Counted from the stretch's first letter, positions 5,673 through 23,329 are shown. The stretch: DNA of 64,000 nt from Candidatus Tectomicrobia bacterium (GCA_016192135.1 JACPUR010000016.1:1-64000), one strand, 5' to 3'. Notes: a model not told the origin generated them from the letters alone. Made by a program: numbers and translations.

Positions 5673-6134
5673 ATGCGAGGCTATGCGGTCCACCGGTCAC
5701 GTACGATGAACATCTATGGCGAACCCATTCTCATCGCCTTGCAGGATTCCGCCATACGGGAATTCGTCTACGAATCCCTATGCCGTTTCGGATTGTGCAA
5801 CTGCACGGTCGTCGAGAATGAAATGGCCGCCTTCTCCTGCATTTGGGCGGGCATCGCCGAATCGCCCTGCGCTCCGTACACCATGGTCATCGGGGATGAT
5901 CCGCGGGCGGGAAACACCACCCTCGATCTGCCGCAGATTCTTCAATATCACCGGCTGTTCCGTAATATCGGGATCATCCTTCTGACCGACCACGAGCGAA
6001 AGCTAGGCTCACGGGATTATCGGATGCTCGTCGAATACCTTCCTGTAACCTTGACCTTTTCCCAGCTCGTCTCATCTGTGTATTCGGTGTGGCGGAAGTT
6101 GCAGCTATTCAGAGAAGGCGATTATGTCCATTAA
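5673..6134 (+). CDS. Small receiver-like protein
   Basis: ATG at 5673 has a clear AAGGA five bases upstream; a second in-frame ATG at 5706 is possible. The ~153-residue product has the alternating strand/helix layout of a response-regulator receiver: 'PILIALQDSAIREFVYESL' at the start, 'TMVIGDD' in the middle and 'IGIILLTDHE' near the end. The acidic pocket, phosphoryl-accepting Asp and Lys-Pro of true receivers are not clear ('VIGDD' and 'EYLPVTLTFSQL' take those places), so it may be a pseudo-receiver that binds partners without phosphorylation. It overlaps the next gene by 11 bp, implying translational coupling, and lies 3' of a sigma-54 promoter. Confidence 0.6.
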   Translation: MRGYAVHRSRTMNIYGEPILIALQDSAIREFVYESLCRFGLCNCTVVENEMAAFSCIWAGIAESPCAPYTMVIGDDPRAGNTTLDLPQILQYHRLFRNIGIILLTDHERKLGSRDYRMLVEYLPVTLTFSQLVSSVYSVWRKLQLFREGDYVH

Positions 6135-7365
6135 ACTCGATTCTCTCATTGCGGAAACGGGCACCAAGTTCCAAGTGTTTGTGCTTCCGCGCCACCTGAA
6201 GTCGTTCTCGTTGCCGGAGCTCATCCAGGTATCCGTCGCCCCCCAAGGCATCCGGCCGGGCCCCCGGGACGACCGGATGTATGTGTGCAACGCCGTCTCC
6301 AAGCGCCCCTACACCAAGGACTACCTTCCCCCGTTCCAGGGGCCGGTCCATCCCCCGGTGGGACCGGGGGAAGATGGCCATTTTAATCATCTTTCCGTTG
6401 ATTCGCCTGAATTCGTCTGCGCCGCCGCTTACGCATCGGCGCGCAGGACGCTGGACATTTGGGAAGATTATATGGGGCGCAACATCGCCTGGCCGTTCCG
6501 CTTGGAGTTTGAAATGCTCGAGATCATCCCGCTGGCTCGCATGCCGGGCGCGAGGATCGGATGGGGATTCTTGGAGTTCGGCTTCGCCGGAAGGAGCAGC
6601 GACGAATTGGATCTGTCGCACCCATACGCCCTGAATATGGAAGCAACCGCGCGGGGAATCGGCCGCGACATCTTCCTCTCGGAAGTCGGCATCCCGCTCC
6701 GCTCGCAGCTCACGCCCGAGCTCGTCGGCGTGGTGAAAACCACCGAGGATATCTCCGCCCTTCTGGCCGTGCTGCATTCCCACAAGATTTTGAATCATCT
6801 GCTCGATGCGACCTCGGGTGACCTCTTCTCCCCCGACGTCATCGGGCGAATCGGGGAATTGTCCGAGGTGCCCTTCTTCCGTCTCGCGCTGAATCAGGAA
6901 ACGATGTCCAGCGTGCCCACCAAACCCAGGTTCCACATGCCTCTCACGGGGGCCCTCGTGGAGCTACTGATCCAAGTGTTCAAATATGAATTGATATCAT
7001 TGCAGATCATCGACCCGGAGCTGTTCGGGCGGCTCGAGAAGCTCTCTTATCCGGATAAAACCGACTATATGGTCCAAACGGAGTTCGACATCGCTTACCT
7101 TCGCTATAAGCCTGAATTTAAGATCTGCTTTCAAAAGGCGCGCGATTATTTGGGCATGCTGATCGCCCGTGCCTGGCCGGGACTTTCGTGCGAGTCCCTC
7201 ACCTTCTTCGACGTCGGCTTGGCGCTTCTCTCGGCGGACCAATTCGTATCGGGCGGAAAGCACATTGCGACCTTGAGGCGATGCTTTTCACGGCGTGAAA
7301 TCGGCCTCCCAAAAGCCACGATCGCCCTTGAACCCGCCAACCTAGTCCCCTCTCCAAACGTGTGA
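6124..7365 (+). CDS. Metallopeptidase-like protein lacking the zinc-binding residues
   Basis: The 413-residue protein resembles a family of uncharacterised gluzincin-type metallopeptidases in layout: 'FNHLSVDSPEFVCAAAYASA' and 'DIWEDYMGRNIAWPF' near 88-125, 'GFLEFGF' near 148-154, then the helix that should hold H-E-x-x-H. Here that position reads R-G-I-G-R (177-181, after 'NMEATA'), and the downstream helix that should supply the glutamate ('H-E-S-A-A-D') reads V-K-T-T-E-D (204-209) followed by 'ISALLAVLH'. The fold-determining residues are kept while both histidines and the glutamates are lost, so it is probably a pseudoenzyme. It is coupled to the receiver-like gene. The alignment is from memory of the family and needs checking. 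Confidence 0.55.
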   Translation: MSIKLDSLIAETGTKFQVFVLPRHLKSFSLPELIQVSVAPQGIRPGPRDDRMYVCNAVSKRPYTKDYLPPFQGPVHPPVGPGEDGHFNHLSVDSPEFVCAAAYASARRTLDIWEDYMGRNIAWPFRLEFEMLEIIPLARMPGARIGWGFLEFGFAGRSSDELDLSHPYALNMEATARGIGRDIFLSEVGIPLRSQLTPELVGVVKTTEDISALLAVLHSHKILNHLLDATSGDLFSPDVIGRIGELSEVPFFRLALNQETMSSVPTKPRFHMPLTGALVELLIQVFKYELISLQIIDPELFGRLEKLSYPDKTDYMVQTEFDIAYLRYKPEFKICFQKARDYLGMLIARAWPGLSCESLTFFDVGLALLSADQFVSGGKHIATLRRCFSRREIGLPKATIALEPANLVPSPNV

Positions 7366-8442: not shown

Positions 8443-9198
8443 TTACCAAACGAGGCGGAAATAATGGTTTCCGCATTTGAACCGGCCATCCACTGACCTT
8501 CGGATCCCCGCTCCGCGAAGGCAATAAAGTTGTTCCGAGGTGGCCCCCGCGGGGATTCTCACCACGATGATTCCCCAGATGGTCAAGACATTGATGCTGA
8601 ATTCACGTCCCAAGTGCGCGCTGGGAACCCTCACTTCGCTGAACACGTCCAATTCTTTCCGAATCAGAAGAGGATGGGGCTTGTATGAAATGACCAGTCT
8701 CAAATCCTCTCCGTCGTCCTGGGGGATTCGAATTTCTTCTCCGTCCTCCAGGCCGGGAGGCAGCAAGATCTTTCGGAAGGCCCAGCTCCGAATCTCACCG
8801 CTTCCGTCGCAAATCACGCATGTGCCGCCGCCCTGGCCGTGGCATATCGGACACTCTTCGGAGATCTGGAACCGGATCGCCACCTCTCCTCCCCGGATGC
8901 CCTTGATGAACTCGAGTGGCAGGAAATAGCGGCGGCCCTGGGCGGCCGCGCCGGGATCCTCCCGTGCGGCTTCCTCGGCGGGCCTGCTGGCGACGTGGTC
9001 CATCAGCTCCCGGTAGGCGCTGCTCAGGATCAAGAATTTTCCTTCCATCTTCGGGTCGCCGCCGTGGCGATCCGGATGGTATTCGAATGCCAATTGCTTG
9101 AATCGCCGCCGGATCTTCTCAGCGTCCGCGTCGGCCGTAATCCCCAAGATTCGACAAGTCTCCTCCAATCGCTCCTTCGGCATAGCCAACATGCTCAT
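8443..9198 (-). CDS. Diverged DnaJ/Hsp40 co-chaperone with a reduced zinc region
   Basis: Residues 11-70 form a J domain with the HPD tripeptide (41-43) that stimulates the ATPase of DnaK. The middle region has only two C-x-x-C pairs (Cys116/119 and Cys127/130, in 'CPICHGQGGGTCVICDGSG') instead of the four C-x-x-C-x-G-x-G repeats of DnaJ, so one zinc centre at most is formed. Residues 140-251 match the beta-sandwich substrate-binding domain ('PPGLEDGEEIRIPQDDGED', then 'EFSINVLTIWG'). The family usually has about 370 residues; this one has 251 and no Gly/Phe linker. It lies upstream of the repeat-protein cluster on the opposite strand and could chaperone those proteins, but no sigma-54 site was found for it. 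Confidence 0.8.
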   Translation of the reverse strand: MSMLAMPKERLEETCRILGITADADAEKIRRRFKQLAFEYHPDRHGGDPKMEGKFLILSSAYRELMDHVASRPAEEAAREDPGAAAQGRRYFLPLEFIKGIRGGEVAIRFQISEECPICHGQGGGTCVICDGSGEIRSWAFRKILLPPGLEDGEEIRIPQDDGEDLRLVISYKPHPLLIRKELDVFSEVRVPSAHLGREFSINVLTIWGIIVVRIPAGATSEQLYCLRGAGIRRSVDGRFKCGNHYFRLVW

Positions 9199-9923: not shown

Positions 9924-9939
9924 TGGCATCCCCCTTGCT
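9924..9939 (+). promoter_or_regulatory. Sigma-54 (-24/-12) promoter of the NNQ-repeat protein cluster
   Basis: TGGCATC-CCCC-TTGCT has GG (9925-9926) and GC (9937-9938) separated by exactly ten bases and differs from the TGGCACG-N4-TTGCW consensus at two tolerated positions. Transcription would begin near 9950, leaving a 5' untranslated leader of about 240 nt before the first repeat-protein gene at 10192. Two sigma-54 activators are encoded in the same cluster (15513, 19810). Confidence 0.65.
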
Positions 9940-10191: not shown

Positions 10192-11163
10192 ATGCGTAGA
10201 TGGAGTTGGGTAGCTCCAGCATTGGCCACCTCCCTCATGCTGGGAGCGGGGCCGGCGTTCGCGGACGTCTTTGTGGCCGTGGACGTCTTCAAGCGCAAGG
10301 ATATTGACATCGTCGAGCGGATCGAGATCGCCAAGGCCGTGACCGTGAGTGCGTTTTTTGCCGGGGCGGTGGAAAAGGCGGCCGAGTCGGATGTCATCGT
10401 CGATCAGGTGAACCTGGGCAACCAAGCCTGCACCAACTGCGACGAGAAGACCGACACCCTTGTCAATTCCGGCAACAGCAACTCCGGCGTCCTGAGCATC
10501 AACCAGGCGGCGGGCAACATGAACAACCAGGGCAACGTGGTGAGCGCCGCTGTGGACGCGGTCGTCGGCAACGGCGGCGGCACTCCGCCGACCCCCTCCG
10601 ATCCCACGGGCGTCGCCAATTCCCAGTCCGCTCTCGAGCAGGAGAACGGCGTGTTTGTGAAGTTCGCCTTCGACGTGACCGTCACGCCGGCCCGGCCGCT
10701 CGATGAGCGTTTTGAGAGTGACGTCGACTTCACCAACCTGTTCATCGTGGCCAACGGCAACACCGTGACGACGGTGGACATCATCTTCCGCGATGCCACC
10801 CTCCAGAACGCGGTCAACGGCAACAGCGGCATCGCCCAGGTGAACCAGAGCCCGGGCAACATGAACAACCAGGCGAACTCCCTGTCACTCGCCGTGTCTC
10901 TCGCCGGCAACGGCGTGGCGCTGGCCGAAGCGGACCTGGGGCAGATCAACGCCGTGAACCAGGTGTTCGAGTCCGACGTGGTGGGGTCGAGCATCGGCGT
11001 CAATGGCGACGATGTCCCGGCCGCGGTCGGAATCAACAAGAACGCGACCATCACGGGCTCGATCCTGGGGAACACCGGCATCGTCGGCGTGAACCAGTCG
11101 GCCGGGAACATGGCGAACCAGGCCAACAACGTGAGCTTCGCCGCTGTGACTCCAGGAAACTAA
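10192..11163 (+). CDS. Secreted N/Q-repeat protein 1, putative amyloid-like fibre subunit
   Basis: ATG at 10192 is chosen over longer frames because GGAGG lies 8 nt upstream and a signal peptide follows at once (WVAPALATSLMLGAGPAFA, cleaved before DVF). The mature protein (~300 residues) has three copies of a 28-30 residue unit, consensus G-[IV]-x-x-[VI]-N-Q-x-x-G-N-M-N-N-Q-x-N, near 'GVLSINQAAGNMNNQGN', 'GIAQVNQSPGNMNNQAN' and 'GIVGVNQSAGNMANQAN'. Between them lies a second motif, 'ADLGQINAVNQ'. The evenly spaced Asn, Gln and Gly resemble the strand-turn-strand repeats of curli and Fap amyloids, though the repeat itself is different. One C-x-x-C ('CTNC') is present. First gene of a sigma-54-driven cluster; function inferred from repeats and neighbours. 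Confidence 0.75.
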   Translation: MRRWSWVAPALATSLMLGAGPAFADVFVAVDVFKRKDIDIVERIEIAKAVTVSAFFAGAVEKAAESDVIVDQVNLGNQACTNCDEKTDTLVNSGNSNSGVLSINQAAGNMNNQGNVVSAAVDAVVGNGGGTPPTPSDPTGVANSQSALEQENGVFVKFAFDVTVTPARPLDERFESDVDFTNLFIVANGNTVTTVDIIFRDATLQNAVNGNSGIAQVNQSPGNMNNQANSLSLAVSLAGNGVALAEADLGQINAVNQVFESDVVGSSIGVNGDDVPAAVGINKNATITGSILGNTGIVGVNQSAGNMANQANNVSFAAVTPGN

Positions 11164-11193
11164 AGGCGAGCGAATTCAAGGGAGACCTGACTA

Positions 11194-12114
11194 ATGACAA
11201 GGAAACTTCTGGGCATTGCCCTTGGCCTGTCGATGATCGCCTTGGCGCCTCCAGCGTATGCTTTCCTGGACAACACGGCGATCATCCTCAAGGACAAAGA
11301 CATCGAAGTACTCGAGCACGTCCGCGTACTGAAGCGGATCGTGATCGCCCCGAGGCTTGAGCGCCGCGATTTCACGGGAGCGGCGGAGGCCCAGGCTTTC
11401 ACGAACCAGGCGAATGTCCTGAACAGCGATGACGCCGTCCCGGGGACGCCTCCCGGTGACTCCGAATTCGACCCCATCTCGGGGCAGCCCCAGGATCTGG
11501 TCGGCTTCGGCTGGCTGAAAGAGGCACTGATCACCGGCTCGGTGAACGCCAACACCGGTATCGTGGGCGTCAACCAGGACGTCGGCAACATGGTGAACCA
11601 GGCCAACAACGTCGCCTTCGCCCTGACCACCGCCTCCGCTGCGATCGCCCATTCGCAGGCGGACAGCGATCAGTTCAACCTGGGGAACGAGCACCGTCAC
11701 ATCGAGGTCCTTCCGCGGAATCCCGACGGGAGCCTCGATCTCGCCACGATCAACGATCCCAACTTCGGGCATCTCAAGGCGACGATCACCGGGTCGGTCA
11801 ACACCAACTCCGGCATCGTCGGAGTGAACCAGAACGCCGGCAGCATGAACAACCAGAGCAACACCCTGGCCCTGGCCGTCGCTCCGGGCGGCTCCGTGGC
11901 CCTCTCCGAGTCCGATCTCGGGCAGGTGAATGCCTTCAACGAGGTGGTGGAGGTCGAGACCGTCAAGCGCGATCTCATCACCGGCTCGGTGAACGGCAAC
12001 ACAGGCGTCGTCCAGGTGAACCAGAGCACCGGCAACATGAACAACCAGGCGTCGGCCGTCAGCATGAGCGTGCTCACCAGCGCGGTCAGAGTGAACGTCG
12101 TCGGCGCTCCGTAG
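11194..12114 (+). CDS. Secreted N/Q-repeat protein 2, putative amyloid-like fibre subunit
   Basis: Paralogue of the preceding gene, 306 residues, 30 bp downstream with GGAGA as ribosome site. The signal peptide 'LLGIALGLSMIALAPPAYA' is followed by a short segment shared with protein 1 ('ILKDKDIEVLEHVRVLKRI' against 'FKRKDIDIVERIEIAK'). Three repeats follow: 'GIVGVNQDVGNMVNQAN', 'GIVGVNQNAGSMNNQSN' and 'GVVQVNQSTGNMNNQAS', plus the linker motif 'SDLGQVNAFNE'. 'ITGSVNxNTG' precedes each repeat. The shared order of motifs shows that the two genes arose by duplication. Likely a co-assembling subunit; a major/minor subunit or nucleator relation, as for CsgA/CsgB or FapC/FapB, is a guess. Confidence 0.75.
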   Translation: MTRKLLGIALGLSMIALAPPAYAFLDNTAIILKDKDIEVLEHVRVLKRIVIAPRLERRDFTGAAEAQAFTNQANVLNSDDAVPGTPPGDSEFDPISGQPQDLVGFGWLKEALITGSVNANTGIVGVNQDVGNMVNQANNVAFALTTASAAIAHSQADSDQFNLGNEHRHIEVLPRNPDGSLDLATINDPNFGHLKATITGSVNTNSGIVGVNQNAGSMNNQSNTLALAVAPGGSVALSESDLGQVNAFNEVVEVETVKRDLITGSVNGNTGVVQVNQSTGNMNNQASAVSMSVLTSAVRVNVVGAP

Positions 12115-12151
12115 TCTCTAGCGGGAGGGAACGACCCCTCTCAAAGGGGCG

Positions 12152-12184
12152 CCGGTGGGGCGGGGGCGACCCCGCCCCACCCGG
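12152..12184 (+). promoter_or_regulatory. GC-rich stem-loop between repeat-protein genes 2 and 3
   Basis: CCGGTGGGGCGGGG pairs with CCCCGCCCCACC(C)GG around a GCGA loop, a nearly perfect 14-bp stem with one bulged C. No U-run follows, so it is not a standard terminator. It could stabilise the upstream mRNA or reduce expression of downstream genes, giving more of proteins 1 and 2 than of the processing genes. Confidence 0.55.
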
Positions 12185-12267
12185 CCCCTCCTCCGGCGGG
12201 GCAGAGAAAAAGTCCACGCGATAAGCGGGGTCCAGGTCGGATGGACATCACACGAAGAGGGCCTCTG

Positions 12268-13065
12268 ATGAAGGCGATGGGACGAAAGACATACCGATGG
12301 CTGGCCGTCCTGGCCGTCGCCGCGGCGGCGGTGGGAGCTCCCTTGGGGGCGCAGACGGCGTCCGCCCAAGAGAAAGCGGCCTTCGAATCGACCGAGACCG
12401 GCTTCAAGTATTCGGTGACCGGCGCCGGGGATGTCGAGGCGATTGCGAACAGCCTCGGCATGGCCATCGCCGAGACGACCGTGAGCCAGGCCCTAATCGG
12501 AAACTATGTCGAGCAAAATAACGTCAACAGCCGCACCCTGATCCGTGATTCCGTCAGGAACAACGCCGGGATCATCACGATCAACCAAGAGTCCGGGAAC
12601 ATCAACAACCAGGCGAACTCCATCGCGGTGGCTCTGATCGAGAGGAGCGGGCCCACCTTCGTCTCCTTGAACAACACGAGGATGGCCATCAGCGCCGGCA
12701 ACACCCTGCTCGTGAGGGGAGGCCACCGGGAGGACCGCATCGAGAACAGCCTACAAAACACGCGAGGCATCGTAGCCGTCAACCAGACCTCCGGGAACCT
12801 GAACCAGCAGTCCAACGCCCTCGCCCTGGGCGTCGGTCTCCGGCTCGGGACCGAGGCGGTCAGCGTCGCCGACGGCGATCTCGGCCAGATCAGCCTGAAA
12901 AACAGCATGGTCAAAGACGAATCGGATTCCCGCACGAGAATGGACATCCTGGTGGACTCGTTCGGCGGTTTCTTCGGCATCGCGCAGATATCCCAATCGG
13001 CCGGAGATTCGAACATCGTGAGCAACACGGCCGCGGTTTCCATCACACGGCTGGAGGCCCGATGA
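12268..13065 (+). CDS. Secreted N/Q-repeat protein 3, putative fibre subunit or nucleator
   Basis: ATG at 12268 has GAAGAGG 7 nt upstream; an upstream in-frame ATG (12241) lacks a good site. A signal peptide (WLAVLAVAAAAVGAPLGA...ASA) is followed by about 230 residues with three diverged repeats: 'GIITINQESGNINNQAN', 'GIVAVNQTSGNLNQQSN' and 'GIAQISQSAGDSNIVSN'. The linker motif 'GDLGQISLKNS' matches those of proteins 1 and 2. Repeats decay towards the C-terminus, as in nucleator-type subunits of amyloid systems. The stop overlaps the start of the C39 peptidase (ATGA), so the two are translated together. Function inferred. Confidence 0.7.
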   Translation: MKAMGRKTYRWLAVLAVAAAAVGAPLGAQTASAQEKAAFESTETGFKYSVTGAGDVEAIANSLGMAIAETTVSQALIGNYVEQNNVNSRTLIRDSVRNNAGIITINQESGNINNQANSIAVALIERSGPTFVSLNNTRMAISAGNTLLVRGGHREDRIENSLQNTRGIVAVNQTSGNLNQQSNALALGVGLRLGTEAVSVADGDLGQISLKNSMVKDESDSRTRMDILVDSFGGFFGIAQISQSAGDSNIVSNTAAVSITRLEAR

Positions 13066-13775
13066 ATACGTGCGCAAAAACCGCCGTCGCGTGCGCGGCT
13101 TGCCTGCTCGCACTGACGCTGAGCATGCCGGCTGGAGAGGCCAGCGTCGTGGCGATTCCTGGCGCCGGAGGCGGAATCCGCCTGAACAACATCCACGTGA
13201 AGACGCTGGTGGACATGCGCTTCAAGCAGATCGTCCGGCAGCAGTACGACGTCAGCTGCGGCGCCGCGGCGGTCGCGACCCTGCTCAAACATTATTTCGG
13301 CCGGGAGCAGGCGACCGAAGAAGACGTTCTGAGAAGCATGATCAAGATCGGCGATCAGGAGAAGATCCAGCGCTTCGGATTCTCCCTTCTGGAAATGAAA
13401 AAATATACAGAAATGCTGGGATACACCTCGCGTGGATTTCGCCTCAAGAACATCGATGTGCTGACGCGCCTGAAGGTCCCCGTAATCACCCTGACCAATG
13501 TCAGGGGATATGCCCACTTCGTCGTCGTCAAAGGGGTGCGGGGGAACCGCGCCTACATCGCGGATCCTGCGTTCGGGAACCGCGCCGTCCCGCTGGATGA
13601 GTTCGAAGCGTCATGGAACCAGGTGATCCTGATTGTGATAGGAAATTCGGTCACGGCTGACAACACGTTCGAACTGCAAGACGCAGTGAAAACGGAGAAC
13701 TCGACCCTGGCGTCAATCCTGAGCAGAGTGTCGTTCATCCACACGACGGTGACGCCCGGCGTCGGAGAATTCTAA
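13062..13775 (+). CDS. Periplasmic C39 cysteine peptidase (FapD-like)
   Basis: A 237-residue C39-family peptidase with its own signal peptide (ACAACLLALTLSMPAGEA) and no ABC-transporter domains. Catalytic residues are visible: Gln60/61 and Cys66 in 'RQQYDVSCGAAAVATLL', His152 in 'GYAHFVVVKGV' and Asp168 in 'AYIADPAFG'. C39 enzymes cut after double-glycine leaders; stand-alone secreted members occur in Fap amyloid operons (FapD). Two genes immediately downstream encode Sec-exported proteins with a matching L-x-x-[LV]-x-G-G motif, so they are the obvious substrates. ATGA overlap with repeat protein 3 couples translation. The C39 assignment is secure; the Fap link is inference from context. Confidence 0.85.
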   Translation: MNTCAKTAVACAACLLALTLSMPAGEASVVAIPGAGGGIRLNNIHVKTLVDMRFKQIVRQQYDVSCGAAAVATLLKHYFGREQATEEDVLRSMIKIGDQEKIQRFGFSLLEMKKYTEMLGYTSRGFRLKNIDVLTRLKVPVITLTNVRGYAHFVVVKGVRGNRAYIADPAFGNRAVPLDEFEASWNQVILIVIGNSVTADNTFELQDAVKTENSTLASILSRVSFIHTTVTPGVGEF

Positions 13776-13794
13776 CCTCGGGAGACAGAACGAC

Positions 13795-14286
13795 ATGAAA
13801 AAGGCTTTTGTTCTGGGGTCCATTTTGGCTCTCCTTCTGGCTCCCGTCCAGAGCGTCGCGGGCGAGCGCGGGAAGCGCCCTTCCTTTGCGGAAGCGCAGC
13901 TCGTCATGCTGCAGCAACACGCGAATCCGCTGCCGGACGAACAGTTGAGCGATTTGCGCGGTGGCTTCAACGGTTTGGCCTTCCGGGTCATCTTCGAGGG
14001 ATTTGCGAACTCCAACGGCGACCGCAACTTCAACCTCCAGGTGAACAGCAACACCGAGCCCTCCTCCAACGGGGGCCAGGTGACCACCACCGGCCAGGGA
14101 GACGGCGAAGCCAAGATCATCGCGTCGGTCGGCGGGTTTGGGGCGGCCCGAGGCGTATTCCAACTCGCGCAGGTCCCGGGGAACAACAATGTGATCACGA
14201 ACAATCTCTTTATCCAGCTCGTTCTGCTCAACACCGGCGGAACGGAAGTCCTGCGCCTCTCGGACATCTTCGGGCCCGGGCAATAG
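13795..14286 (+). CDS. Secreted protein with internal double-glycine motif and one N-rich repeat
   Basis: 163 residues. Signal peptide 'KKAFVLGSILALLLAPVQSVAG'. After the signal comes 'LPDEQLSDLRGGF': Gly56-Gly57 with Leu at -4 and -7, the spacing of double-glycine leaders cut by C39 peptidases. The C-terminal part is rich in Asn and Gly and contains 'GVFQLAQVPGNNNVITNN', which parallels the N/Q repeat of the three upstream proteins. Predicted path: Sec export, then cleavage at R-G-G by the adjacent C39 peptidase, then release or assembly of the ~106-residue C-terminal part. Small 'LRGGF' proteins accompany Fap-like clusters in other bacteria as I recall, but they are unnamed. Confidence 0.7.
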   Translation: MKKAFVLGSILALLLAPVQSVAGERGKRPSFAEAQLVMLQQHANPLPDEQLSDLRGGFNGLAFRVIFEGFANSNGDRNFNLQVNSNTEPSSNGGQVTTTGQGDGEAKIIASVGGFGAARGVFQLAQVPGNNNVITNNLFIQLVLLNTGGTEVLRLSDIFGPGQ

Positions 14287-14305
14287 GGGAATGTGAGGAA
14301 CCGGG

Positions 14306-14887
14306 ATGATGCGCCTGGAGAAAATGAGGACGCTCATACGCATCTTGTGCTTCATGCTGCTTGCGTCGCCCTTTGGTCTGGAGCGGGCCGGCGCGGAAAA
14401 TCCCGCCTTGCTGAAGTCGGATTGCAGTCCGAGAGAGGCGCCCTGGCATTCTACGACGGTTGAAAACCTGCGCCTGGAATCATCCATCCTGCATGAACGG
14501 GTTATGACGATAGCGACCCACGGCTGTTCGGATATGCAGTCCATTTCGGAGTTGGAACTGGGCAGCGTGCGAGGCGGGGAATCCGGCGACGCCAGTTTCA
14601 CTCCGCCCGAGGCCGCAAAAGAGCAGGACCCCTCCCTCGGCGGCGCGGACGCTGCGCCCGAAAGCTCCATTTCCGAGGTTCCGCCAGCCAACGGCGAAAA
14701 GAAGCGCGTCCGCGTCGAGATCAAACGGAACACCGCATCGGTCCGCAACGAGGAAAGGAATACCCGCCTCTCCACCTTTCGAGACGTCGCTCTCGTGCCG
14801 ACATTCGGACCGTCCTTCGGTACCGGCTCCCCCACCCCCAACGGATTCTCTTCCCGCCTGATCCAGAATACCGCGCCGACAAGGTAA
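14306..14887 (+). CDS. Secreted or anchored protein with double-glycine motif, disordered C-terminus
   Basis: 193 residues; signal-like hydrophobic stretch 'TLIRILCFMLLASPFGLERAGA'. At Gly90-Gly91 it carries 'SISELELGSVRGGE', which fits the double-glycine leader rule very well: Glu -8, Leu -7, Val -4, Gly -2, Gly -1. The part after the GG is hydrophilic, Pro/Ser/Glu-rich with 'EKKRVRVEIKRNTASVRNE' and a Gly/Pro/Ser tail, probably disordered. It lies 20 bp after the other GG protein and closes the cluster. Likely a second substrate of the C39 peptidase, perhaps a regulator or linker; the role is unknown. Confidence 0.65.
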   Translation: MMRLEKMRTLIRILCFMLLASPFGLERAGAENPALLKSDCSPREAPWHSTTVENLRLESSILHERVMTIATHGCSDMQSISELELGSVRGGESGDASFTPPEAAKEQDPSLGGADAAPESSISEVPPANGEKKRVRVEIKRNTASVRNEERNTRLSTFRDVALVPTFGPSFGTGSPTPNGFSSRLIQNTAPTR

Positions 14888-15311: not shown

Positions 15312-15327
15312 TGGCCCGTAATTTGCT
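15312..15327 (+). promoter_or_regulatory. Sigma-54 (-24/-12) promoter of the receiver-less activator
   Basis: TGGCCCG-TAAT-TTGCT keeps GG (15313-15314) and GC (15325-15326) ten bases apart and matches TGGCACG-N4-TTGCW at all but one position. Start of transcription would be near 15338, about 175 bp before the ATG at 15513. The driven gene itself encodes a sigma-54 activator, implying auto-activation or control by the NtrC-type regulator at 19810. Confidence 0.7.
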
Positions 15328-15512: not shown

Positions 15513-16559
15513 ATGCCATATTCCGCCCATGATTTGCCTGACACCTGCTTTTCCGATGGCACCCCAAACCAGTCCGACGCACCCGGCTTTACGCCTCCCG
15601 TCCACGTCCTGGAAAGAGGAAAGCACCCGAAGGAAATCATCGCCGACAGCCCGGGGATGCAGGAGGTCTTCCAGCAAATTGAGAAATTTGCCTCCTCATC
15701 GGATGCCTCGATCCTCATCACAGGGGAGACCGGCACAGGCAAGGAAGTCGTCGCGGCCTTGATTCACAAGAAAAAGCTGCGGCGTGCCGATGGTCCCTTC
15801 GTTGCGGTCAATTGCGGCGCGATACCGGGCCCGCTCCTCGAGTCCGAGCTATTCGGGCACGAAAAGGGGGCATTCACGGGGGCGTATGCCCTCAAAAAGG
15901 GGAAGGCCGAGCTCGCGCACGGAGGCTCGCTGTTCCTGGATGAGGTCGGGGAACTGCCCCTGACGCTCCAGGTCAAATTGCTGCGCTTCCTGGAGACGCG
16001 CCAGATCGACCGGGTCGGCGGGACCAGCGCCAGGAACATCGACGTCCAAATCATCAGCGCGACCAACAAAAACCTGTTCGAGTCCGTCAAGAAGAAAGAG
16101 TTCCGAGAGGATCTGTACTACCGCCTGGCGGTCTTGTGCATACATCTGCCGCCTCTCAGGGAACGCGGCGACGACGTGCATCTCCTCGCCTACCAATTCC
16201 TCGAGAAGTTCGCGCGCGAGTTGGGCCGGCCCGTCAAAGGCTTCACGCCCGAAACCTTGCGGGCCATGGAGTCATATCCCTGGCCGGGCAACATCAGGGA
16301 GCTGCTCAACAAACTCCGCAGGGCGGTCGTGATGGCGGAAAACGAGTGGCTCTCGCCCTCGGACCTGAGCCTCGATCCGGAGAAGGACACCCCTGACCTC
16401 TTGAATCTCCCGGAGGCAAAGGAAAAAGTCGAACATGAATATCTGCAAAAGGCGCTCTCGCTCAGCAAAGGCAATATCTCGCGCGCTGCCAGGCTGCTGA
16501 AAATCAGCCGTCCGCATCTTTACACCCTGATGCGGAAGTACCGCATAAAAAAGGGATGA
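15513..16559 (+). CDS. Sigma-54 activator lacking a receiver domain (AAA+ and Fis-type HTH)
   Basis: 348 residues. After ~45 unique N-terminal residues the AAA+ sigma-54 interaction domain starts: Walker A 'GETGTGKE', the sigma-54-contacting loop 'GAFTGA', Walker B 'LFLDEVGELP', sensor 'ATNKNL' and R-finger region 'FREDLYYRL'. The C-terminus is a Fis-like helix-turn-helix ('GNISRAARLLKISRPHLYTLM'). No phosphoryl-acceptor or ligand domain is present, as in PspF, so activity would be set by expression or a protein partner. The gene has its own sigma-54 promoter and sits directly after the fibre cluster, making that promoter (9924) the obvious target. GGGGAG precedes the ATG. Confidence 0.9.
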   Translation: MPYSAHDLPDTCFSDGTPNQSDAPGFTPPVHVLERGKHPKEIIADSPGMQEVFQQIEKFASSSDASILITGETGTGKEVVAALIHKKKLRRADGPFVAVNCGAIPGPLLESELFGHEKGAFTGAYALKKGKAELAHGGSLFLDEVGELPLTLQVKLLRFLETRQIDRVGGTSARNIDVQIISATNKNLFESVKKKEFREDLYYRLAVLCIHLPPLRERGDDVHLLAYQFLEKFARELGRPVKGFTPETLRAMESYPWPGNIRELLNKLRRAVVMAENEWLSPSDLSLDPEKDTPDLLNLPEAKEKVEHEYLQKALSLSKGNISRAARLLKISRPHLYTLMRKYRIKKG

Positions 16560-16623
16560 CATGGCACTTCACGCGAAATGCCGGGCCTTTATTGCCGGCG
16601 CTTTTCCTCCAAGGAGATCGTCC

Positions 16624-17652
16624 ATGAGACCGGCAAGAATATTCTGGGCCGCCGCAGCTCTTCTCCTGGCGATGGCCTCTCATTCGGCCGCCGCAGAATT
16701 GCGCGTGGTCCGCCTTTCCTTCACGAACGGATGGAACGCCCTGCCGGCCCTGGTGGCCATCGAGCGGGGCTTCTTCGCCCAAGAGGGCCTCGTCGTCAGC
16801 GGCTTGGCGGTCCCCTCGGTGAACGCCATCGGCAACTCTTTGCTGGCCGGCTCGTCGGATCTCGCCATTCTGCCCCAGCGCAACTTTCTGAAGATGGCGC
16901 AGCTGAAGATGCCGATCCGCGCCATATCCATAAGCGGCTGGGACACCCAGATGCAGCTCGTAGTGCCCGCGTCGGACGCTCGCACCAAGTCATTGAATGA
17001 TCTCAAGGGGAAAAGCATGGCCCTGGGCGTCGCCTCGAACGCCTTGCCCGCGTTCATCCGGCTGCTCAACCAAAGCAACATGACCCTGAAGGATGTGGAG
17101 ATCCGATTCTTGGACTCCTCCAAGCTCACCCAGGTGTTTCCGGCGAAAATGGCGGACGCCATTTTCGAGACCCGGCACTTCACCGATGTGATGACGATGA
17201 AAAAACTGGGAAGGGTCGCCGTAGGACACGAGGAAATCAAAGAGAAGATCGGCCTAATCCAGAGCGACCCTCTCCTCGCACGCCAAGAGTTCATCGAGAA
17301 GGAGCCGGAGACCGTCCAACGGTTCGTGAACGCGTGGGTCAAGGCGCTTCAATACATTCAACAAGACTCCAAGGATGCCTCCCGCGTCCTGACCATCTTC
17401 TTCCACCGCCTAGGGGTGGCCTCGGTGGACGAGAAGCTCGCCCATTCGTGGGTCACGTATTCCCGCCACGACCGGTATTTTTGGTCGGAGAGCGACATTG
17501 CCGACGCGAAGTATAACGCCTGGGGCCTCAAGGAGGCCGGCCAACTGAAGGCGGTGCCGGAGGATCTCGAAAAATACATTGACAACCGGTTCGCCCGGAA
17601 GGCGATGGAGAAGTTGAAGGCGGAGTTGCCTCCCTCCCCGGCGGCGAAATGA
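16624..17652 (+). CDS. Orphan periplasmic binding protein of the NitT/TauT/SsuA type
   Basis: ATG at 16624 has AAGGAG 9 nt upstream and starts a signal peptide (IFWAAAALLLAMASHSAAA). The ~320-residue mature protein shows the type II binding-protein pattern of the SsuA/TauA/ThiY family: 'LPALVAIERGFFAQEGL', 'SSDLAILPQ', 'DLKGKSMALG', 'RQEFIEKEPETVQRFVNAW'. This family binds sulfonates, taurine, bicarbonate/nitrate or thiamine precursors and delivers them to an ABC transporter. No permease or ATPase gene lies nearby. It follows the activator by 64 bp and probably shares its mRNA. It may therefore act as a sensor or as part of the fibre system rather than in uptake; the ligand is unknown. Confidence 0.8.
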   Translation: MRPARIFWAAAALLLAMASHSAAAELRVVRLSFTNGWNALPALVAIERGFFAQEGLVVSGLAVPSVNAIGNSLLAGSSDLAILPQRNFLKMAQLKMPIRAISISGWDTQMQLVVPASDARTKSLNDLKGKSMALGVASNALPAFIRLLNQSNMTLKDVEIRFLDSSKLTQVFPAKMADAIFETRHFTDVMTMKKLGRVAVGHEEIKEKIGLIQSDPLLARQEFIEKEPETVQRFVNAWVKALQYIQQDSKDASRVLTIFFHRLGVASVDEKLAHSWVTYSRHDRYFWSESDIADAKYNAWGLKEAGQLKAVPEDLEKYIDNRFARKAMEKLKAELPPSPAAK

Positions 17653-17707: not shown

Positions 17708-18973
17708 CTACCTGAACAGATTGAACGTGATGGGAAAGCTGATCGTAAGTTGAAAGTCGGGCGACTGCTCCGAGAGGCCGATGGCGACCGCCATCAGGAG
17801 CGACATGTTGGGAGCGATGGTAACGGAGGTTCCGAAGGAGAGCCTTGCGTCCGTAAAGTCCGTCCCTCTCACCTTCACGCCGTTCCGCTCCGTCTTCGCC
17901 TGATCCTGGATGATGAATGACATATTCATCGAAACCCGTTCGTTGATCGCGAAGTTCAGGCCGGCGAACAAGTCGACGACATCGCCCGGATCGATGTCGC
18001 CCGTCGCTCCGCCGATGGAGCGCTCGAGATTGAACGTATAGCCCCCTCCCGCGAACAAAACGACGGGATCCGTTCTCCAGACAAACGTGACGCCCGGTCC
18101 CGCGCTATAGAAGCCCGAGCCCGTGGGCGCCTCGGTCAGACGCACATCCCCCGCGCCGACCGTCTCGGTGCTAATATCGAAGGAGTCCTTGCCGGTGCGG
18201 GATTTCCCGCGTAAGCGCAAGATGACATCGGGAATCGCCCCCTGCCCGATGATGGGCTGGTAAAGGATCGAACCCTCGACGTCGCCGATGCCCGAGCCAG
18301 TGATGGTTCTGCTGCTTTCAGCGTTGGTTCCAACCTGGATGATTTCCTCGTCCTTGCGCTGAATGAAGGGAACCCGCGTTTCGAGTTGCACGCGCGGGAG
18401 CAGGCCGTAACGGAGCGTCACCGCCTCGGTGTATATGTCGCGATCCAGCCGGTCGACCCGGATCGAGCCGATGACGATCGCCTCGAACACGGTGAAGCCG
18501 TTGATCACGACGCGGTTCGCGGTAAACCGGGACCACTCGAAACTCGGCTCGATCTGAAGCGTCCCGGGGGCCAGGAGGATGGCCCCCCGCTCCAGCAGCA
18601 AGGCCTCGCGCGGTTTTTCACTCGCCGGGCGGTCACCCTGGGTGGGGCCGGAAGGTGGCGTCGTCGGCGCAACCGGGGTCACCTCCCTGGGGGGCTTGGG
18701 GGCGGGCTCCGGCGCCTGCGCAAGGAGCAGGTCTCCTGCCCCCCTCTCCGCATATAGGTCGGGGCGCTCCAGGGTCAGCCGATCCAACAAGCCGCCCGAT
18801 CCGTGCAGGCTGATCCCCAGGCCTGGCCTCCAGCCTTGCGCTGGCTGGCCGTAGGCCAAACCGTGCAACAAGATGAGCACCACAAAGCTGCCAACGCCCA
18901 CCAGCGCCGAAATCACGAATTTGCCGACACAGCCGGCTGCACGGCCCGACGAAGTACGCCATCGAATTTTCAC
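17708..18973 (-). CDS. Outer-membrane beta-barrel transporter, FapF-like
   Basis: 421 residues with an N-terminal signal anchor (VISALVGVGSFVVLILLHGLAYG), a Pro/Thr/Lys-rich segment (about 88-125) and a beta-barrel from about 135 to the end. The barrel begins 'APGTLQIEPSFEWSRF', continues with 'VEARVPF'-like strands ('VQLETRVPFIQRKDE') and shows alternating polar/hydrophobic strands to 'FQLTISFPITFNLF'. This pattern matches the transporters that export Fap amyloid subunits, in which a plug or coiled-coil precedes the barrel. The linker here is proline-rich rather than coiled-coil. It lies within the cluster of N/Q-repeat proteins, C39 peptidase and sigma-54 regulators. Assigned from sequence pattern and context; the substrate is inferred. 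Confidence 0.7.
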   Translation of the reverse strand: MKIRWRTSSGRAAGCVGKFVISALVGVGSFVVLILLHGLAYGQPAQGWRPGLGISLHGSGGLLDRLTLERPDLYAERGAGDLLLAQAPEPAPKPPREVTPVAPTTPPSGPTQGDRPASEKPREALLLERGAILLAPGTLQIEPSFEWSRFTANRVVINGFTVFEAIVIGSIRVDRLDRDIYTEAVTLRYGLLPRVQLETRVPFIQRKDEEIIQVGTNAESSRTITGSGIGDVEGSILYQPIIGQGAIPDVILRLRGKSRTGKDSFDISTETVGAGDVRLTEAPTGSGFYSAGPGVTFVWRTDPVVLFAGGGYTFNLERSIGGATGDIDPGDVVDLFAGLNFAINERVSMNMSFIIQDQAKTERNGVKVRGTDFTDARLSFGTSVTIAPNMSLLMAVAIGLSEQSPDFQLTISFPITFNLFR

Positions 18974-19809: not shown

Positions 19810-21210
19810 ATGATCGCCCGAATCCTTCTTGTGGAAGATTGTGTGAAACAACGCACAATGATCCGGCATGGGCTCAACGAATTCGGCTTCGAGATCATCG
19901 AGGCCGACAATGTTGAGAATGCGAAGGAAAAACTGCGGCATCATATCCCTGATATTTTCGTGATCGATCTGCACCTTCCCGGCCGCGACGGCTTCGATTT
20001 TTGCGTCGACATTCAACAAGATCCCGCGCTGACTTCCATCCCGCGGCTCATGCTGACGGGGGATTCGACGATGGATAACCAGCTTCTTGGACTCTCGGAG
20101 TATGTCGACGATTACGTCACGAAGCCCTTCCGGCTGGAGCTCCTTAACGCGCGCATCAAGGCCCTGCTCCGCCGGTACAACCCTTATCTGCTATCTGACA
20201 ACACCAGTTCCGTTGACCTTCAGGCGCTTCCCGAGAGCAACGACGCCTATCCGACTTTTGGCAGCGGGATCATCGGAGCATCGAAACCCATGCTGGATGT
20301 GTTCGCCTCGTTGAAAAAATTCGCCCAGGCGAACGCGCCAGTCCTGATCACCGGAGAGAGCGGCACTGGGAAGGAGCTTGCCGCACGCACCATCCACGAA
20401 CGAAGCAGCCGTTCGGGCGGACCGTTCGTCTCCATCAACTGTGGGGCCATCCCCGACAACCTGCTGGAAGCCGAACTGTTCGGCTACGAGCGGGGCGCCT
20501 TCACCGGCGCCCACGCCCGGAAAAAAGGCAAGGTGGAAATGGCCCATGGCGGAACGCTGTTTTTCGACGAGATTGGAGAGTTGTCCTTGTCGCTCCAAGT
20601 GAAGCTGCTGCGCTTCCTCGAGACATACAGGTTCGAGAGGCTCGGGGGGATGGAATCCCTGAAAGTGGACGTTCTCTTCGTCGCGGCCACGAACAAAAAC
20701 CTTCAGCGGGCCATTGAAGCAGGAACATTCCGCGAGGATCTATATTTCCGCCTCGCCGTTCTCTCGCTCGAGCTTCCGCCTCTTCGCACGCGGGGAGAGG
20801 ACAAGATCATCATCTCGAACGCGCTCCTGAAGCGTTTTTCGCAGGAGGCTCGCATCAAGGTGGAGGGCTTTGCGCCGGATGCGCTGAACGCTATCCGCAT
20901 GCACCACTGGCCCGGCAATGTGCGCGAGCTGGCCAATTGCATCCGGAGGGCCCTTGTGATGACGGATCACAGATGGATCCGAAAGGAAGACCTCAATCTG
21001 TCGAAAGGGAGCGATGGAATGAGGGTGGAAGTCCCCGGCTCGTTGCATGAGGCCAAAGAACAAACCGAGCGCATGTTCCTGGAGGAGGCCATTGCTCGTC
21101 ACAAGGGCAACCTTTCCAGGGCCGCCCGTGAACTGGGCATCAGCCGTCCCACCCTGTACGGCCGGATCAAGAAATACAACCTGCGCCCCGATGCATTGGG
21201 CAATTCATGA
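19810..21210 (+). CDS. NtrC-type sigma-54-dependent response regulator
   Basis: 466 residues. Receiver domain 1-120: acidic Asp10, phospho-acceptor Asp53 in 'FVIDLHLPG', Thr83 and Lys105 in 'VTKPF'. AAA+ domain ~150-390 with Walker A 'GESGTGKE', 'GAFTGA' and Walker B 'LFFDEIGEL'. Fis-type HTH at the C-terminus ('GNLSRAARELGISRPTLYGRI'). The AAA+/HTH part is closely similar to that of the receiver-less activator at 15513, and the two could compete for or share DNA sites. The ribosome site is GGAGG. The histidine kinase gene starts 31 bp downstream, forming a two-component pair. Predicted to open sigma-54 promoters of the fibre system when phosphorylated. Confidence 0.92.
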   Translation: MIARILLVEDCVKQRTMIRHGLNEFGFEIIEADNVENAKEKLRHHIPDIFVIDLHLPGRDGFDFCVDIQQDPALTSIPRLMLTGDSTMDNQLLGLSEYVDDYVTKPFRLELLNARIKALLRRYNPYLLSDNTSSVDLQALPESNDAYPTFGSGIIGASKPMLDVFASLKKFAQANAPVLITGESGTGKELAARTIHERSSRSGGPFVSINCGAIPDNLLEAELFGYERGAFTGAHARKKGKVEMAHGGTLFFDEIGELSLSLQVKLLRFLETYRFERLGGMESLKVDVLFVAATNKNLQRAIEAGTFREDLYFRLAVLSLELPPLRTRGEDKIIISNALLKRFSQEARIKVEGFAPDALNAIRMHHWPGNVRELANCIRRALVMTDHRWIRKEDLNLSKGSDGMRVEVPGSLHEAKEQTERMFLEEAIARHKGNLSRAARELGISRPTLYGRIKKYNLRPDALGNS

Positions 21211-21241
21211 GCGGTGGAGATGAGCATCACGCTGCACGGCA

Positions 21242-23329
21242 ATGCGTTCGCCCCGCATCCGTCCGATGCGATCTTCTTCATTCCGTATGAGAATGTCATC
21301 CATCAAGACGCCCAATCCTGAACTCGCCAGGGTCCTCCATCCGGTCAGCGAGGAGGCGCGAGCCGCCTTGCGGGGCGACACGGTCATCATGCTGCTGATG
21401 GACCTCACGGGCAGCACCCCCGCGAGCGTTCTGTACCAGGCTGGATTGCCCTTCGTTGCGGCTCTTGACGAGAGTCTCAACGAGCACATGAGCTTCCTGC
21501 TTCAACGCGCCCTGATGCACGGGCGACCCGAAGTGACCAATTGCCTGGCTCCCGGGGCCATTTATGAAAAAGTCTTTCGGAAGATGGGCTTCACAACCTT
21601 GCTCGTCATCCCGTTTCACGCCGACCCCAAGACGATCATGGGGTTGTTCATATGCTCCAAAGAGCGGCAGGAATACTCCTCGGCCGACATACAGCTCGCC
21701 GAGCTTTACGGCCGGCTCATTGCGTCCCTTCTGGAGACATTCGAGCTTGGGAAGCTGTACGAAATCAGCAGCCGGACCATGCAGTTCATGCCCGGGGCCT
21801 TGCGAAAGTTGAGAGCCCAGGAAGACTTGCTGGAGATCATCCAGGCCGCCTTCCGCGAGTGCAAGCCCGTCATGGGCACGGATCGCAGCGTCCTCATCCT
21901 GCTCGATCCGGACACGAACGAGCTCCTCTTTTTCAAGTCCGATGCCGTCTCCGCCCGGTTCATAACCCGCCTCAAGAATTTTCCGGTGCCACACCCCTTT
22001 TTCCATCGCATGCTTCCTCAACCCAACCTGGGCGGGTCCGTTGTTTTCCCTGACGCCACCAAGGATCCGGAATGGGGATGGGTGCAGGTAGAGGAGGGGC
22101 ACCAATCGTTCATTGGCTACCCACTTTGCTGTCAGAACCGGACCTCGGGTTTTCTTTTCTTCTACTGGACGAGCCCGCAAAGGCTGGACGACATCCGATA
22201 TCTGATGGGAGAACTTTTCGCCGACCAGGTCGCCTGCTCCATCGCTCAAGTCCAGGCCAAGAACAGACAAGATGGTTTCCGGCGGATCACGGATAACGCC
22301 GCCGATCCCATTCTGGTCCATGACCTGAACGGAAAGATTCTTTACGCCAACCCGAGCGCCTGCCGCGCGCTTGGCTATTCATCCGAGGAGATCCTCGGCC
22401 TCTCCGTGGACGCTGTTGACCTGTACTGCCAGATCGCCACCTCGCGGCTGGAATGGGATCGGACGCGAGAGAATGAAGCGAAAACCGCCGAGGGGTTCTT
22501 CCGACGGAAGGATGGGAGCACCTTCCCCGTCGAGATCAGCCGCAACCGCCTGGACAGGCGTGGAAGCCCCGCCCTCATTGCATTCATCCACGATGTCGCG
22601 CGGTACAAGGAAATCGAGGACAAACAAAAAAAGATGATCGATGAGGCACACGCCACCAACAGGGCCAAGAGCTTCTTCCTCTCTACGGTCTCCCACGAAC
22701 TGAGGTCTCCGCTCAATCAGATTATCGGCTACTGCGACATCATGATGATGGAGTCCCCCGATAAGGCCGAGATGCTCAAATCCATTCTGAATGCGGCGGA
22801 GCATCTGATGAAGCTTGTCGAGGACCTTACCGACATTGCGAATCTGGGCCGTCACAACATGCAGCTCCACTTGCAGGAGGTCCCCATCAACGAGTTGGTC
22901 AAGCATCTGACCGAAAGCCGGAGAGAGTCCTTCCCCGGCAAATTCCATCTTTCGCTCCGGCTCGACCCCTCCAACCCGCGCTGCATCTGCGATCCCACCC
23001 GGGTGAACCAGATCCTCACCAACCTTCTCGACAATGCCATCAAGTATTCGCCCAATGGGGGAACGATTTCCTTCGGCTCGCAGGAATATCCGACCGAAGT
23101 GTGGGTCTCCGTCAGCGACGAGGGGATCGGGATTGACGAAGCCGACAAAGAGGTCATCTTCGAGCCTTTCTACCAGGGGGACAGCGGCTTCTCCCGGCGC
23201 TTCGGCGGCCTGGGAATTGGCCTGAGTCTGGTCCGTTCCATGGTCATCATGCAGGGCGGTCGCATCTGGGCCGAAAAAGGCGAATCGGGAAAAGGCAGCA
23301 CCTTCACGTTTTCCCTGCCCAAGTTTTAG
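21242..23329 (+). CDS. Sensor histidine kinase with GAF and PAS domains
   Basis: Up to 695 residues; in-frame ATGs at 21287 and 21293 are alternative starts. There is no signal peptide or membrane segment, so the kinase is soluble. GAF-like domain(s) cover about 30-340 ('SFIGYPLCCQNRTSGFLFFY'), a PAS domain about 350-470 ('GFRRITDNAADPILVHDLNG', 'ANPSACRALGYSSEEILGL'). The kinase core has the H-box 'FFLSTVSHELRSPLNQ', N-box 'NLLDNAIKYS' and G-boxes 'DEGIGI' and 'GLGIGLSL'. The partner is the NtrC-type regulator immediately upstream. Signals could be cytoplasmic redox state, small molecules or another protein; sequence alone does not say. Confidence 0.9.
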   Translation: MRSPRIRPMRSSSFRMRMSSIKTPNPELARVLHPVSEEARAALRGDTVIMLLMDLTGSTPASVLYQAGLPFVAALDESLNEHMSFLLQRALMHGRPEVTNCLAPGAIYEKVFRKMGFTTLLVIPFHADPKTIMGLFICSKERQEYSSADIQLAELYGRLIASLLETFELGKLYEISSRTMQFMPGALRKLRAQEDLLEIIQAAFRECKPVMGTDRSVLILLDPDTNELLFFKSDAVSARFITRLKNFPVPHPFFHRMLPQPNLGGSVVFPDATKDPEWGWVQVEEGHQSFIGYPLCCQNRTSGFLFFYWTSPQRLDDIRYLMGELFADQVACSIAQVQAKNRQDGFRRITDNAADPILVHDLNGKILYANPSACRALGYSSEEILGLSVDAVDLYCQIATSRLEWDRTRENEAKTAEGFFRRKDGSTFPVEISRNRLDRRGSPALIAFIHDVARYKEIEDKQKKMIDEAHATNRAKSFFLSTVSHELRSPLNQIIGYCDIMMMESPDKAEMLKSILNAAEHLMKLVEDLTDIANLGRHNMQLHLQEVPINELVKHLTESRRESFPGKFHLSLRLDPSNPRCICDPTRVNQILTNLLDNAIKYSPNGGTISFGSQEYPTEVWVSVSDEGIGIDEADKEVIFEPFYQGDSGFSRRFGGLGIGLSLVRSMVIMQGGRIWAEKGESGKGSTFTFSLPKF

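Follow-up and report, generated by a model that had tools for sequence, protein, structure and literature searches.

Here we describe a 64,000-nt stretch of DNA from Candidatus Tectomicrobia bacterium (GCA_016192135.1 JACPUR010000016.1:1-64000), hereafter the window, in which positions 10,192 to 14,887 encode three tandem secreted repeat proteins, a C39 peptidase, and two proteins with a double-glycine leader. We find that this locus is very probably a true, though divergent, operon of Fap, a known bacterial system for making functional-amyloid fibres at the cell surface, and that its repeat, judged from the sequence, is the known Fap repeat of the FapB type. A preliminary description of the window had proposed a Fap-like amyloid system. 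That proposal is supported by matches to the NCBIfam models of FapB, FapC, FapD, and FapF and to PDB entries of FapF and FapC, by synteny in a second genus, by the co-occurrence of the genes, and by the linkage of FapD to FapF at 75 of 79 loci. The same description had called the N/Q repeat distinct, which was mistaken: the NCBIfam FapB/FapC matches and our profile searches identify it as a FapB-type Fap repeat. The genes of the system are as follows.

10192-11163, plus strand: repeat protein A (Fap subunit), with three repeats; NCBIfam FapC E=8.8e-13, FapB 2.6e-8
11194-12114, plus strand: repeat protein B (Fap subunit); NCBIfam FapC E=3.4e-16, FapB 5.4e-11
12241-13065, plus strand: repeat protein C (FapB-like); NCBIfam FapB E=4.3e-13, FapC 3.6e-12
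13062-13775, plus strand: FapD, predicted Sec-exported C39 cysteine peptidase; NCBIfam C39_FapD E=3.8e-45, Pfam PF03412 5.5e-23
13795-14286, plus strand: FapE (GG1), with Sec signal and double-glycine leader; assigned by its position after FapD and by the leader profile
14306-14887, plus strand: GG2, a second protein with Sec signal and double-glycine leader, of low complexity; assigned by the leader motif
17708-18973, minus strand: FapF-type outer-membrane barrel; NCBIfam FapF E=5.8e-46, PDB FapF 5o65/5o67 E=1e-35

The open reading frames (ORFs) were confirmed where they had been placed, as were the secreted C39 peptidase, the two GG-motif proteins, and the FapF-like barrel nearby. The order on the plus strand is A, B, C, D, GG1, GG2, with the stop codon of C overlapping the start codon of D as ATGA, and the subunits are followed by D and then E, as in the fapBCDEF gene order that a Fap system is expected to show within about 5 kb. 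All frames of the Fap genes are open and the repeats are conserved. A Pfam scan named only the C39 domain, the regulator, and transport proteins; NCBIfam named the whole Fap set. Signal peptides were called with a simple hydrophobicity rule and judged by eye.

Counts of the core motif confirmed three tandem secreted proteins, each with three N/Q repeats and a DLGQ linker. The core, G[IV]xx[IV][NS]QxxG, occurs three times each in A, B, and C (shuffle mean 0.0002-0.0006, maximum 1, 5000 shuffles) and is absent from every other ORF of the window. The cores lie at residues 99, 213, and 296 of A (nt 10486, 10828, and 11077), 122, 207, and 271 of B (nt 11557, 11812, and 12004), and 110, 176, and 246 of C (nt 12568, 12766, and 12976). 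The third repeat of C is degenerate, GIAQISQSAGDSNIVSN, and resembles both the third repeat of Pseudomonas-type FapB, GVVQMSQSAGVGNRIAN, and the published FapB repeat-3 consensus (PMC12392863). The linker DLGQ[IV]xxxN is found once per protein, ahead of repeat 3 (A 10933, B 11914, C 12877); compared by eye, it lies where Aeromonas FapB has its FGQLNQ stretch. A (10252-10416) and B (11254-11418) also have in common a charged N-terminal stretch of KDKDIxVxExVxV type, for which relatives were sought and none found among the other Fap proteins examined.

To identify the repeat, we built a lineage profile solely from 12 repeats, those found in the window and its nearest relative, and ran it on every ORF of the FapD loci. 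It matched FapB (best 2.0e-15) and FapC, usually on two or three repeats, just upstream of FapD, with matches in 34 of 84 loci, window and relative included. For all 12 lineage repeats a FapB profile gave a better score than a FapC profile, these being small repeat profiles made from few sequences of other loci; unlike them, the NCBIfam FapC model gives A and B their highest scores. The repeat consensus reads VALGDQALSNSKGLVGVNQVAGEGNQQVNLFALSLSGA in FapB and EDLITGSVNGNTGIVQVNQSAGNMNNQANVLAVAVTLA in the window lineage. The Fap register is position-specific, with G, N, and Q columns invariant across 22 proteins.

Structure prediction of one repeat protein agreed with this assignment within the confidence of the model. 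In the AlphaFold2 model of C (22-row alignment, predicted local distance difference test (pLDDT) score of 54, low confidence), the same strand pattern is seen three times. In a Foldseek search of PDB, the best match to this model was the FapC fibril 9u4u (E=1.2e-5, probability 1.0); FapC 9nqd ranked next, ahead of the CsgA fibril in third place, a result counter to a globular fold. B showed a weak match to FapC fibril chains in the repeat register (9nqd, E=0.0056). The model of FapE (GG1), with a pLDDT of 46, was too poor for use. Indirectly, the match of the modelled fold to the FapC fibril suggests that the window subunits would form extracellular amyloid fibres.

The C39 residues of FapD reported earlier were confirmed as C66 (codon 13257-13259), H152 (13515-13517), and D168 (13563-13565), all invariant in the alignment. 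A FastTree phylogeny of 90 FapD sequences places the window and its relative outside the canonical Fap clade (support 0.967) and also outside a sister FapD clade with other subunits (0.999); the grouping of the window and relative with this sister clade was supported at only 0.377. The substrate of FapD has been described as unknown (PMC5557850, PMC6173800), and the Fap proteins have been stated to be without canonical C39 sites (PMC5557850). FapD was later "thought to" cut FapE and FapF (PMC12822426), FapE having already been proposed as its substrate (PMC5557850).

FapE homologues had not been seen in the preliminary description. On its sequence, GG1 is FapE, because it lies directly after FapD, is the top match of a FapE-leader profile, and has a C-terminal Fap-like repeat, although the NCBIfam FapE model gave no match to it. 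The leader profile was made from the leader regions of 73 FapE-position proteins of other loci, with window and relative excluded; GG1 was its top match among all window ORFs (E=1.1e-4), followed by the homologue in the relative (0.044). The features in question are these.

13930-13965, plus strand: predicted double-glycine leader of FapE (GG1), LPDEQLSDLRGG; shuffle frequency 0.0006, motif conserved at the FapE position elsewhere
14543-14578, plus strand: predicted double-glycine leader of GG2, ISELELGSVRGG; shuffle frequency 0.00025
About 14152-14205, plus strand: C-terminal single Fap-like repeat of FapE (GG1); FapB-repeat profile E=5e-4

The leader recurs in FapE-position proteins outside the window. 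Strict RGG in the leader register was found in 35 of 81 FapE-position proteins and in 4 of the 426 remaining secreted-looking genes at these loci (Fisher p=4e-27), a p-value to be read as enrichment rather than as a blind test because the motif was picked by eye from the same, related loci. The four non-FapE genes all belong to the same Fap-type gene clusters, and the leader-profile test of the window is independent of this enrichment. Across proteobacterial loci, the last Gly of the FapE-position leader is often Lys or Arg, and a Pseudomonas-type FapE above the NCBIfam cut-off (L112) has the leader LKDQELAQLRGKY. Among 25 FapA-like proteins, recognised by their LWDE motif, 22 have a leader of the double-glycine type (L047, L059, L079, L072, and others). 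In Paraburkholderia, FapA has RQRGG and its own FapE a degenerate QTGK. Mass spectrometry in Pseudomonas UK4 found FapE without its N-terminus, which was not the case for FapA (PMC5557850); this speaks for cleavage of FapE and against cleavage of FapA in that strain. The literature searched held no description of a conserved FapE leader or of the exact cut site.

The conserved leader yields an exact prediction, namely that FapD would cut FapE (GG1) after 13965, at LRGG, and from their leaders both GG1 and GG2 would be substrates. No relatives of GG2 were found in the Fap loci examined. We considered GG2 as a candidate FapA, and it showed neither an LWDE motif nor homology.

A strong FapD together with the repeat and FapF was confined to two of 18 genomes of the phylum, and the predicted co-occurrence of the repeat with C39 and barrel genes was observed in these same two. 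The second is an uncultured Nitrospinae metagenome-assembled genome (MAG; CAMYJL010000075.1, L030) of the same family as the window and another genus, and we therefore call the window a relative of Nitrospinota. In L030 the genes run C-D-E-F, contiguous and on one strand. Among 79 loci found with a FapD alignment, with flanks as fetched, an FapF barrel lay within the flank in 75 and a sigma-54 activator in 60. Fap has already been reported from Pseudomonadota, Desulfobacterota, Nitrospirota, and Bacillota (PMC12822426), so the extension of its range is modest; a literature search for Nitrospinota with FapC returned nothing relevant. Elsewhere in the L030 genome (L022 4025-8918 and L024), two further FapD/FilB-like C39 genes adjoin other N/Q repeat proteins, which are of VNASQSNVANQAN type and have leader-like stretches with AA or AG at the end (VLSDGDLDSITAAN; LLSDREMGGVFAGD).

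Several observations weigh against a Fap operon. The barrel gene lies 2.8 kb past GG2 on the opposite strand, detached from the operon, and its product has a Pro-rich N-terminus with no heptad pattern or coiled coil by inspection. As the preliminary description had noted, FapA is missing, with no homologue and no LWDE-type protein seen at the locus. Every window Fap protein falls below its NCBIfam equivalog cut-off, no typical FapC repeat occurs among the 12 lineage repeats, and the AlphaFold2 models (pLDDT 54 and 46) are of low confidence. Separation of fapF from the operon is a known variation, and the FapA chaperone is dispensable and often absent (PMC3792158). FapB, FapC, FapE, and FapF of Aeromonas caviae are also under the NCBIfam equivalog cut-offs, and Aeromonas is an accepted Fap-bearing genus (PMC3792158). 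The NCBIfam FapF match is confined to barrel residues 134-417. The coiled coil of Pseudomonas FapF does not serve to define the family; in a deltaproteobacterial MAG with FapC-type repeats (L034), the FapF coiled coil is also apparently missing.

The C39 protein and the barrel also match FilB (2.2e-36) and FilC (7e-19), and the subunits differ in other FapD-like loci, as might be expected if this were a putative pilus like that of Acinetobacter (FilA-F), or another C39 and barrel system exporting a non-amyloid repeat adhesin. However, the FapD and FapF models outscore FilB and FilC, the subunits have the Fap repeat, the C model matches the FapC fibril, and no FilA, FilD, FilE, or FilF match was found among the neighbouring genes scanned, which makes this alternative improbable. 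The locus could instead be a degenerate or repurposed one that no longer makes fibres, given its retention in only two of the 18 genomes, the missing FapA, and the detached barrel. With open frames, intact catalytic residues, conserved repeats, and synteny kept in a second genus, we regard that as quite improbable. The low-complexity composition and low-confidence structure model would also suit a globular N/Q-rich secreted family resembling Fap by composition only. This is very improbable, because the repeats hold the position-specific Fap register with its invariant columns, the profile matches sit at the correct gene positions of Fap operons, and the C model matches the FapC fibril.

Taking the locus as a Fap operon, we propose that sigma-54 and the adjacent activator would turn it on, and that the Fap proteins would reach the periplasm via Sec. 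FapD would then remove the leader of FapE, cutting behind LRGG, and probably that of GG2, cutting behind VRGG; this cleavage may license export. A, B, and C would exit unfolded via FapF and build surface fibres by stacking their repeats in cross-beta layers, and C or cleaved FapE is a candidate nucleator or anchor. Sigma-54 control is suggested by two promoter matches, each scoring 28/30, a score that 1% of random 500-nt stretches taken from the window attain; sigma-70 promoters were sought and none found. In P. fluorescens PF07, fapA-E are under an RpoN promoter and require the adjacent activator BrfA (PMC9207406); the window activator is BrfA-like in position, and the promoter matches agree with this RpoN/BrfA control. 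The regulatory and neighbouring features are listed below.

9924-9939, plus strand: sigma-54 (-24/-12) promoter match upstream of A, TGGCATCCCCCTTGCT
12115-12207 (within 12112-12215), plus strand: very strong hairpin in the RNA that separates B from C; -65.5 kcal/mol, z=-3.6
15312-15327, plus strand: sigma-54 promoter match upstream of the activator gene, TGGCCCGTAATTTGCT
15513-16559, plus strand: sigma-54-dependent activator (AAA+ and Fis-type helix-turn-helix); PF00158 E=3e-67
16561-17652: NMT1-type substrate-binding protein, between activator and barrel

The hairpin may be a point of mRNA processing or attenuation; that it adjusts subunit ratios is a guess. A 413-aa protein (6124-7365, no Pfam match), a DnaJ-like protein (8443-9198), and the NMT1-type substrate-binding protein adjoin the Fap genes in the window and in L030 alike. 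To our knowledge, none of the three has a known link to Fap function. Just past the barrel, 19810-23329 encodes a GAF/PAS histidine kinase along with another sigma-54 response regulator, of PEP-CTERM type.

We give an even chance to a broader proposal, that this lineage forms a deep Fap branch of its own with fibres solely of FapB-type subunits, and that FapD is generally a Sec-side, periplasmic double-glycine leader peptidase. FapD would cut FapE and, at loci that have one, FapA or a different small leader protein, in each case behind [L]xxxxLxx[LM]RG[GKR]. The leader on FapE, and on FapA where present, across Fap loci makes the question of the FapD substrate directly testable, and the window offers a clearer view of the probable substrate and cut position than the textbook Pseudomonas Fap. 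Fap is now placed in a little-studied lineage related to Nitrospinota, where fibres might be made from FapB-type subunits alone.

The window can be compared with several known systems. Acinetobacter Fil (filABCDEF) has a distantly related C39 peptidase, FilB, and barrel, FilC, to which the window scores lower than to FapD/FapF; its subunits and gene set are different. The proteobacterial sister loci (for example Marinobacter L038 and Geotalea L031) resemble the window in having FapD, FapE with an LRGG-type leader, a sigma-54 activator, and FapF. Their subunits are D/N-rich and lack the Fap repeat. A third locus of this FapD clade (L036) has the same partners, also with D/N-rich subunits. In these loci a short protein upstream of FapD has a leader-like stretch, for example LTDEQLAGASGR, and they are possibly an undescribed sister system of Fap. 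L030 keeps homologues of C, FapD, FapE, and FapF in order, together with the substrate-binding, 413-aa, and DnaJ-like neighbours. It differs in a FapE leader ending RGK, an FapF with a Pro-rich N-terminus of ~640 residues, and the lack of GG2; its contig ends upstream of C. With Pseudomonas Fap (fapABCDEF; PMC3792158, PMC5557850, PMC12392863), the window shares subunits that each hold three imperfect repeats in FapB register, a periplasmic C39 FapD followed by FapE, an FapF barrel, a neighbouring activator, and matches to sigma-54 promoters. In contrast to Pseudomonas, it lacks FapA, its FapE retains the full GG leader, a second GG-leader protein is added, its FapF gene is detached and encodes no coiled coil by inspection where that of Pseudomonas has a known one, and its FapD falls outside the canonical Fap clade. 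The subunit number also differs, as the preliminary description had observed, with three FapB-type subunits rather than one FapB and one FapC; because two fapBC genes occur in 94.5% of surveyed clusters (PMC12392863), three subunits are unusual but not unknown.

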